Translations under genes and position numbers: made by a program | Shown here: positions 53,559 to 56,987 of the stretch, in pieces | Position numbering within the stretch: the first letter of the stretch is position 1 | How the letters are laid out: every line of letters starts with the position of its first letter | Notes under the pieces: generated by a model | Told to the model about the DNA's origin: nothing | Database searches by the model: none | What the model saw: only the letters and a program-made list of their open reading frames with translations | Assembly (NCBI GenBank): GCA_000697355.1 | Contig: JNEN01000861.1 | Coordinates: forward strand, 186,001-250,000 | Direction of reading: 5' to 3' | DNA length: 64,000 nucleotides | From: Syncephalastrum monosporum B8922 | Lineage: Eukaryota; Mucoromycota; Mucoromycetes; Mucorales; Syncephalastraceae

Positions 53559-53624
53559 CTGGTCTAAATCCACTAGCCCAAAGTCTCTACCTCACTTTTC
53601 CACATTCGCACGTTTACATTCGCT

Positions 53625-54280
53625 ATGGTTAACGCTGTTGCTATCCTGAGCCAGTCTGCTGCCATCACCGGCATGATCAACTTCACTCAGCCCCATCCTG
53701 GTGCCCAAACTACCATCACCGCCAAGATCCACGGCCTTGAGCCTGGCAAACATGGTATCCACGTCCACTCACTCGGCGATATTTCGGGTGGTATGTACTT
53801 CTGTCGCTTCATGCGGTGCACGCGTTGACAGAATCGCTTACGCGTTCATAGGTTGTAACTCTACTGGCACTCACTGGAACCCTAAAAACATGACGCACGG
53901 TGGCCCCGAGGACAAGGTCCGCCACGCCGGTGACTTTGGCAACGTGGTGGCGGATGGTAATGGCGACGTCGACTTCAACCTTCATGACGACGTCGCCACG
54001 CTTTTTGGCCCAGAATCTATTATTGGGTAAGCTATTGAAAAATAAGCCTCGTGACACACCTTTTTTGACAAATTGAGGCGCAATTACAGCCGTGCTATTG
54101 TGGTCCACGCTTTGGAGGATGACCTCGGCCGCGGCGGTGATGCCGAGTCCAAGAAGACTGGTAACGCCGGTGGTCGCCTTGCTTGCGGTATTATTGGCAG
54201 TAAGTAGCACGATAAATGTCAAACTAGGCACGTCTCTAATCTTCTGTTTCACAGTTTCTTCGCTAGAGGACCTTGATTAA
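53625..54280 (+). CDS. SOD1: Cu/Zn superoxide dismutase
   Basis: Cytosolic homodimer that dismutates superoxide. [20 protein letters not shown], then [20 protein letters not shown] with the first two copper His. After the intron, [18 protein letters not shown] gives the bridging His (THWNP), then a zinc His, and [19 protein letters not shown] gives another. [20 protein letters not shown] has the last copper His; [13 protein letters not shown] has the active-site Arg and the disulfide Cys. Three introns (about 53791, 54026, 54201). No signal peptide. All ligands and the structural disulfide pair are present, so it should be active. Variants from common SODs (GTHWNP for GPHFNP) are conservative. 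Confidence 0.95.
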
Positions 54281-54482: not shown

Positions 54483-55643
54483 TCAAAGTTCATTACCGAC
54501 TGTAACCCAGTAATCGCGCAAATTGTTCTTGCGTCCGAAGATTTCGAGGTATTTGCCTGTTTTTGAACTTATTGTCAGTATCAAGATTAAACAATATATG
54601 AACCACCGATTTACCGTTGGGCACCAGCTCCTCGATGAGCTCATAGAGTTCCTCTGGCTTTTGACTTTGTCCTCTCCGTTCGGAGAAAATGACATCCGAT
54701 CCCACTGAATGCCGGCAGTTGGGTGGATCCTCGCCCTAGATGTTTATGTTATATGAGCCTTTGTACATCGTGTCTTTTCCTGTTTTCTACCTTTTTGCCC
54801 ACCAGACAAGTTTCTTTAGCATGCTGCAGGTAGTAACCGTGGCCCTTTGCCATACGTCGATTGACGGTCTGTTTTACCCAGGTAATATCGTCTACATAGC
54901 TATTCACGATAAAAATTAGGGTGACGCATGAGTAGTATGCCCTAAACTTACTGGTAGCCCCACCGCTCCATGAGTTCAAAAGCTTTGGCATATTTGTTAT
55001 TGATGACCCAGATGAATATGAAACCGTTCTTCTGCAGTTTTTGGATAGGGATTTCCTCAATGCAGATGTCGGGCAATTGTTGGTAACCAATGGCAACCTA
55101 ACGAGAGCTTTAGTTCTTCCATATGCGTTAAATACGTCTATATGTTTCTTTGACATACACCGCGTGTGGGGGCGTGGGTAGCTAACTGCCACGGCGGGGC
55201 TGCGACGATCACGTCAAACTGTACTTCGGATGCAAGTGCCTATTATACAGGTTAAATTTGCCCAAGCTTTGCCATAACAGCTTATTTGTTGTACCTCCCA
55301 GTCGAAGGTCATGACGTTGGCCTTGATGGGAACACACCACTCCGGCGCCTCGAATTCCTCAAGGTCTAGAAGAAAAAGTATGTATCAGCCATGTCGCAGA
55401 AGAAGGAGCGTATATGTGGCATTTACCTTGTGGATCGAGTTCTTCGTCATTTTTGTTGTTTTTACCGGCTGCAGTGGATTCCTCGATTTGCGAGATTTCG
55501 GTTTGGAGGGCGTCGATCTGGAGTTGTAGCTCGATTTCTCTGCGCAATAAGTTCTTGAGGGTGGTATCGGTGACGGTCGATTCGTCAATAGTATCAAGAT
55601 CAAAACCAGAAACAGAGCTGGGAGATGCTTCCCGTGATGACAT
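54483..55643 (-). CDS. MT-A70 family N6-adenine methyltransferase-like protein (MTA1/METTL3 type) with altered catalytic motif
   Basis: Built from seven exons, all with good GT/AG and frame. The N-terminus MSSREASPSSVSGFDLDTID leads to a coiled helix (LKNLLRREIELQLQIDALQ), then LEEFEAPEWCVPIKANVMTF. The methyltransferase core reads QFDVIVAAPPWQLATHAPT, GVAIGYQQLPDICIEEIPI, KNGFIFIWVINNKYAKAFEL, VDDITWVKQTVNRRMAKGHG, YYLQHAKETCLVGKKGEDPP, KPEELYELIEELVPNG and KYLEIFGRKNNLRDYWVTVG. MT-A70 enzymes carry DPPW; here the Asp codon reads GCC (Ala), giving APPW. The GHGYYLQHAKETCLVG wording and lack of METTL3-type zinc fingers point to the MTA1-like branch linked to DNA 6mA in ciliates and early-diverging fungi. 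It may be a non-catalytic partner subunit. Divergent from ASF1. Confidence 0.88.
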
Positions 55644-56221
55644 GTTATGGAAAGAAGGACAACAAACGGTTTCTGTGGGTGTATCAAAAATTGAGTGACA
55701 GCAGTGGGAAGTCGCGTTCTCGCGTTCCTATTTTTCACGCGTTGCACCCCGCTTGCCACCACCCGAGAGCTGAATGTCCGCAGATCCTTTGACGGTATAC
55801 ACGTCTTCCTTCTCAAGCCATCCATGGGCTCCTGCGTGTTTTCTTCGGAGTACATACTAGGACTGCGTGCAGTAGAGAGCTATATCTGCAGAGATCATGG
55901 TCAGGGCACAGGTATCACCACGGCGACTCATAGCGCCATTGCAGTGGGAGTATAGCCTAACGGTATAGACAATAGGCTTCTGTCTCGAGATTCAGCAAGC
56001 ACTATCTAGGGCACATACCCTGTGAGTCTTTTTATTACCATACCCTAATGATAGTCTTAATAAAAGTGCGCCTGTGAGGGGACAAAATCCAAGTCCATCA
56101 GGCTGAAAAAGCGGAGAATGGACAATCGACGCGCACGCGTCGCGTCTTTGTCTTTGGCTGCTGAATTTGCTCCTGTGCCTTTTTCTTGTTCTTTTCGTTT
56201 CTTCTCTTCTCCTCAGCTGTC
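55644..56221. promoter_or_regulatory. divergent promoter region of the MT-A70 gene and ASF1
   Basis: 578 bp shared upstream region. A long ATG frame on the minus strand (55855 downward) only overlaps exon 1 of the MT-A70 gene in another frame. No other gene is seen. Confidence 0.5.
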
Positions 56222-56987
56222 ATGTCTCTCGTCAACATTCTCAACATTTCCGTCCTCGACAATCCCGCGCCCTTTTCGCACCCGTTGCAGTTTGAGATTA
56301 CCTTTGAATGCAACGCCGAGCTCAAGAATGGTACACTTCATCTTTTTGCTGGCTTATTTTTACCTTGATTGACCTTGCCCGTTGTAAAGATCTCGAATGG
56401 CGAATGATCTATGTTGGTGCGGCGGAAAGCAAGGATTACGATCAAGTTCTGGACTCCATCATGGTGGGCCCCGTGCCTGTAGGTGTGAATAAGTTTGTTT
56501 TTGCGGTAAGGTGGAGGAAAGCGTGTGCCGAGAGAGGTTCATTAACGTGGGTGGTAATGGCAGGCGGATGCGCCCAAGATTGAGCTGTTACCTCAGCATG
56601 ATCTGTTGGACTGCACTGTTATCCTTCTGAGCTGTCTCTACAACGACCAAGAATTTGTGCGTGTTGGATACTACGTGCACAACGAATACGTCGATGAAGA
56701 GCTCCGCGAGAACCCGCCTGCTACTCCCAAGGTCGACCGCCTGCAGCGAAATATCTTGAGTGAGAAGCCCAAGGTCACCCGATACACGATCAACTGGTAA
56801 TCCTGGCTATCGCTGTCGAGATGGAGTATACTGATGATTTGAACCTTTATAGGTCTGACGATCCTACCCCTGCCGTATCCGACGCACAGCCTCCTTCGGA
56901 ACAGCAGGTAATTAAGACAAGTGCACCATACATATCCGAACCCAACTCACCATATTAAAACATTACCAGGATATGATGGTCCAGTAA
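56222..56987 (+). CDS. ASF1: histone chaperone ASF1
   Basis: Binds H3-H4 dimers and hands them to CAF-1/HIRA during replication-coupled and independent chromatin assembly. [20 protein letters not shown] starts the Ig-like ASF1 core, then [111 protein letters not shown]. These contain the H3-H4-binding face residues of the family. Four or so introns. The acidic C-terminal tail is short ([18 protein letters not shown], then DMMVQ), shorter than the yeast tail. Confidence 0.96.

Follow-up and report, generated by a model that had tools for sequence, protein, structure and literature searches.

Symmetric 6mA at ApT is written by the MTA1-MTA9-p1 complex, in which MTA1 is the catalytic subunit. 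The window analyzed here, a 64,000-nucleotide stretch of the Syncephalastrum monosporum B8922 assembly, carries an MTA1-type gene in which the catalytic Asp of the DPPW motif reads Ala. Does this gene encode a working writer, an inactive partner or an enzyme that has recently lost its catalysis, or is the change a single wrong base in the assembly?

Exon structure and the APPW motif

Splicing of seven minus-strand exons (Table 1) yields an open protein of 272 residues that ends NEL-stop, and all six introns are GT-AG. The Pfam MT-A70 domain covers residues 104-271 (9.3e-38). As an earlier note on this DNA had claimed, the protein keeps the whole MT-A70 core, including both sequence blocks that the note quoted, and its motif reads APPW instead of DPPW, with Ala110 as the first residue (context AAPPWQL). 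The sequence of the N-terminal helix resembles that of four relatives; in Tetrahymena MTA1, this helix binds p1 and p2 (PMC9174199). Two plus-strand genes flank the locus, a Cu/Zn superoxide dismutase (convergent) at 53577-54207 and an ASF1 histone chaperone at 56165-56800.

Table 1. Features of the MTA1-type gene (window coordinates)
Feature	Position	Strand	Content or basis
MTA1/AMT1-type gene	54483..55643	-	ATG at 55643, stop at 54483; Pfam MT-A70 and tree
Exon 1	55427..55643	-	N-terminal region; p1/p2-binding helix by its Tetrahymena MTA1 counterpart
Exon 2	55295..55365	-	Splice model
Exon 3, APPW-bearing	55159..55239	-	Splice model
Codon GCC, Ala110 replacing the catalytic Asp of DPPW	55198..55200	-	
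Exon 4	54952..55097	-	Y159 (MTA9 contact; Tetrahymena numbering Y258)
Exon 5	54791..54899	-	GHGYYLQHAKETCLVG block; K181, R187, K190
Exon 6	54615..54735	-	Cofactor-pocket S232, K234
Exon 7	54483..54556	-	KYLEIFGRKNNLRDYW block; cofactor-pocket E253, F255, R257, N259, N260, N270, E271

The window protein is an MTA1/AMT1 ortholog

Judged by its sequence, the window protein is an MTA1/AMT1 ortholog and belongs to neither the MTA9 nor the METTL4 type. A tree of 39 rows, which included 22 of the 167 MTA1-type proteins listed among our matches, grouped it with MTA1 and split it from MTA9 at support 96/99, and placed it inside a set of seven MTA1 rows at 99/99; the bootstrap in this tree is unsettled, 7 of the 36 inner branches are well supported, and the METTL4 row, being too long, has no firm position. 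METTL3 and METTL14 are absent from the tree and were compared with the window protein by structure-match score alone. Among solved structures, Tetrahymena MTA1 scored highest (245 bits), followed by METTL3 (114), METTL14 (55) and MTA9 (35). Both results bear out the MTA1-type identity that the note had proposed. The closest of the MTA1 matches listed are from Apophysomyces (87%) and Radiomyces (86%), whose terminal branches (0.096 and 0.13) are comparable to that of the window protein (0.14). Its branch length is ordinary, with no visible speed-up.

The window protein departs from near-invariant columns only at the catalytic Asp

We merged the best 120 of 911 matches with the best 120 of 473 to obtain 167 distinct MTA1-type proteins. 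Their motif is DPPW in 166 cases, NPPW in one and APPW in none; because these are best matches, each representing a 90% cluster in which the motifs of other members are not visible, further motif IV states may lie hidden. The single NPPW protein, MTA1 of Rhizopus stolonifer (P0005), has this motif as its sole deviation at near-invariant columns. Asn is common at the Asp position in bacterial N6-adenine methyltransferases, and by that analogy the R. stolonifer enzyme may still be active. Another of the listed proteins, a metagenome MTA1-type sequence (P0286), comes with PHD-type domains (PF20826, PF00628) and is a possible chromatin-reader fusion. The 90% clustering also limits what can be said of particular species. 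Among the relatives listed, S. racemosum MTA1 has no row of its own as a normal-length or longer model. We dropped the idea of MTA1 loss in Lichtheimia, Phycomyces and Circinella, which are absent among the matches listed, because the clusters hide members.

To define near-invariant columns, we required one residue in at least 97.5% of rows with the window protein excluded, which gave 120 columns. The window protein deviates at one of them, D110. With it included, 95 of 121 rows have no deviation and 20 have exactly one. A single deviation is thus not rare; its location on the catalytic Asp is the unusual part. Five residues are private to the window protein, at positions 13, 14, 53, 110 and 172. 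Two other substitutions, A127G and P142Q, had been considered as signs of relaxed constraint and were discarded, as 7 of the 120 listed relatives share G127 and 22 share Q142.

This pattern bears on whether the gene is dying. An early pseudogene, unneeded or unexpressed, might be expected to lose a catalytic residue, as has happened here, but the open frame, canonical splicing, ordinary branch length and intact remaining near-invariant columns make such decay very improbable. With the rest of the protein so well preserved, either the change is young, or the protein has been kept as a pseudoenzyme, or the base is wrong.

The cofactor pocket is otherwise intact

Two studies name cofactor contacts of Tetrahymena MTA1 (PMC9174199, PMC9852454), eleven of them besides Asp209. 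Ten are identical in the window protein: V90 and the nine pocket residues of exons 6 and 7 (Table 1). The eleventh, Asp182, described as essential in Tetrahymena, corresponds to Asn89 here; Asn occupies this position in 111 of the 120 listed relatives, so the window protein differs from Tetrahymena but agrees with most of its family. The MTA9 contact Y159 and the basic residues K181, R187 and K190 are the same in all 120 listed relatives, and the three positions aligned to the basic residues are reported to have been tested for DNA binding in Tetrahymena MTA1. The fold outside the motif therefore appears to be under constraint, as the note had argued from the sequence.

An active writer should combine these pocket residues with DPPW. 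The window protein has the former and carries APPW in place of the latter. A scaffold paralog should group with MTA9 and show pocket erosion beyond motif IV, and neither is seen. In terms of sequence, the window gene is MTA1 by descent and, by its motif, not an active writer.

Published substitutions of the same residue

The closest characterized enzyme, Tetrahymena MTA1/AMT1 (PDB 7f4l, 7yi8), belongs to the same subfamily and has the same pocket, with the alignment spanning the methyltransferase domain. Changing its Asp209 to Ala is reported to abolish activity and to lower SAM binding strongly, while complexes still assemble (PMC9174199). A second Tetrahymena study found almost no activity left after the Asp to Ala change (PMC9852454). 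In Tetrahymena cells, an APPA form reduced the ratio of full to hemi methylation from 7.58 to 0.02, as in the deletion, and AMT1 expression was lowered too (PMC11760949). One Tetrahymena MTA1 structure (PDB 8xyx_A) has APPW at the same place as the window protein. From its letters this looks like an engineered substitution, unlike the APPW found here in a genome assembly; we found no paper describing this entry in the open-licence literature.

Within the Mucorales, Mucor lusitanicus offers the nearest comparison, with the same complex members (mta1, mta9 and p1) and the same residue change. Deleting mta1 removed all symmetric 6mA sites, and the growth of the deletion strain was rescued by wild-type mta1 but not by an APPW allele (PMC11258239). 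That allele was engineered, whereas the one in the window is apparently natural. For natural APPW or otherwise inactive MTA1, the accessible open-licence literature shows engineered alleles only. A different kind of abnormality is reported for another early-diverging fungus, Rhizoclosmatium globosum, which has little or no 6mA at ApT (PMC8298701). Its AMT1 is short, whereas the window protein has its full length and differs at one key residue.

MTA9 and p1 are present alongside the one MTA1 found

We searched the genome assembly (27.5 Mb, 198 contigs) for further MT-A70 genes. No second MTA1 was found by protein search, by DNA search or by a DPPWQL codon-pattern search, which requires the motif to lie inside one exon; the protein search also gave a weak match on C39 (E 1.36). 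The assembly may be incomplete, with a second MTA1 missing from it. A PF05063 profile search matched METTL4 and MTA9 but not the short exons of the window gene. It can thus miss short-exon MT-A70 genes and is not a full census, and METTL3 or METTL14 homologs may have escaped it. The note had proposed searching the genome for a second MT-A70 gene with DPPW. One was found, METTL4 on C165, the sole further DPPW gene of this family that we recovered, and it is not a second MTA1. Its best match among solved structures is 7cv6, deposited as Methyltransferase-like protein 2, which we take to be METTL4-type.

A separate MTA9 gene lies on C36. Nine exons give an open frame whose best solved-structure match is MTA9/AMT7. 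Its second intron is GC-AG (L005 1335-1393, C36), and expecting GT there produces a false frameshift. The protein differs from S. racemosum MTA9 at 15 of 442 positions, the next listed match being 76% identical, and shows no departures at 53 conserved columns. On this comparison we take the fungus to be a Syncephalastrum distinct from the strain that supplied the S. racemosum protein. Its motif is DPPL, as in 102 of the 120 listed MTA9 proteins, 118 of which keep DPP. Side by side with MTA1, its C-terminal pocket residues differ by eye. Cytidine deaminase domains (PF00383, PF08211) accompany ten of the 120 MTA9-type proteins listed, all ten from Coemansia and a relative (P0214, P0221, P0224-P0226, P0229, P0233-P0235, P0237); they reflect either fusions or merged gene models.

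The note had suggested that the window protein is an inactive scaffold, comparable to MTA9 or METTL14, beside an active partner. Such partners do combine the MT-A70 fold with an altered motif IV, as the window protein does. However, the window gene lies outside the MTA9 clade, its pocket is kept except for one Asp, a separate MTA9 exists in the genome, and our searches turned up no further MTA1 that has DPPW. The suggestion is not supported.

The p1 gene lies on C166. It came from 41 Myb-search matches, of which seven places were inspected and one was compared with solved structures; homeodomain matches were set aside. Six exons give an open protein, and the closest solved structure to its Myb segment is Tetrahymena p1 (6.6e-16), with c-Myb as the next other protein (9.2e-9). 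MTA9 and p1 thus co-occur with the window MTA1. Additional 6mA-related candidates are a MetB-like N6_Mtase frame on C191 with the motif NPPY, named from its Pfam family and motif, and matches on four contigs to the 2OG-Fe(II) oxygenase family of Pfam, to which AlkB belongs. In Mucor, mta1, mta9 and p1 are described as present and p2 as absent (PMC11258239); the set known from the Mucorales is therefore complete here.

With this inventory, we can ask whether symmetric 6mA could be made without the MTA1 Asp, either by an APPW enzyme that is still active or by catalysis shifted to MTA9. S. racemosum is cited as carrying 6mA at or near promoters (PMC9279130), and its own MTA1 motif is not visible among our listings; furthermore, MTA9 here retains DPP. 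We nevertheless consider this reading highly unlikely. In the studies above, the Asp to Ala change inactivates Tetrahymena MTA1 and gives no rescue in Mucor. In our by-eye comparison, the C-terminal pocket residues of MTA1 are absent from MTA9, which led us to drop MTA9 as a replacement catalyst.

A recent loss of catalysis is the favored reading

On balance, we favor, with some reserve, a recent and real loss of the catalytic Asp, at the level of strain or species, in which the complex itself has persisted. In this scheme, the single MTA1 found in a Syncephalastrum-like fungus would have recently exchanged its catalytic Asp for Ala. If it behaves like the published mutants, the Ala110 protein would remain folded and assemble with MTA9 and p1, but its binding of the methyl donor would be weak and methyl transfer would not take place. 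If catalysis is lost, symmetric 6mApT should be missing or nearly so, and any residual 6mA would at most be the work of other enzymes, the MetB-like one among them. To judge from the preserved cofactor pocket, a real loss would be recent. In a survey whose tree includes S. racemosum, every early-diverging fungus with substantial ApT methylation is reported to have AMT1 (PMC8298701). With S. racemosum also cited as carrying 6mA (PMC9279130), the loss would postdate the split from that species, unless APPW is present there too.

A base-calling or consensus error would leave an ordinary MTA1 in the organism and one wrong base in the assembly. Such an error would need a single base in an otherwise ordinary gene, the other near-invariant columns are intact, and APPW is known from one assembly of one strain. 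The requirement for catalysis in Mucor growth makes a natural null less expected, and a review describes loss of the 6mA mark as lethal in Rhizopus microsporus (PMC13297926), which adds to the surprise of such a null and leaves an error less easily set aside. We still regard an error as unlikely, if a serious contender. MTA1, MTA9 and p1 all have clean frames and splice sites, and the conserved columns of MTA9 are without departures. In most assemblies, few bases of the consensus are wrongly substituted. A priori, a natural substitution of this Asp in a single one of hundreds of species seems more probable than a base error.

A long-kept pseudoenzyme is the other way to explain a preserved protein. 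Here, the MTA1-MTA9-p1 complex would have been maintained without catalysis in the Syncephalastrum lineage, as a DNA-bound scaffold or recruiter. All three genes are open and conserved in sequence, and dead MT-A70 partners such as METTL14 and MTA9 are common in the family. The C-terminal pocket residues of MTA9 have changed, whereas the pocket of the window protein is kept, so a young loss fits better than an old pseudoenzyme, which we consider improbable. Equally doubtful is a version in which the writer complex of this Syncephalastrum lineage persists as a DNA-bound assembly with no catalytic function, neither MT-A70 subunit being active and MTA9 and p1 still being conserved.

Implications for 6mA in early-diverging fungi

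If the APPW codon proves to be a base error, its value is limited to correcting one assembly. If a recent loss is confirmed, the window would hold a natural knock-out of the 6mA mark in what seems to be the sole MTA1 gene of the genome. The Mucorales test that we found is the one engineered Mucor allele, for which catalysis was needed for growth. A true loss here would mean that a Mucorales mold can live without the catalytic residue while retaining MTA9 and p1, and would provide a ready comparison with 6mA-bearing S. racemosum. Were the non-catalytic assembly real, it would uncouple what the complex does structurally from the mark. At stake is which of the two matters in early-diverging fungi, the 6mA mark or its writer complex.
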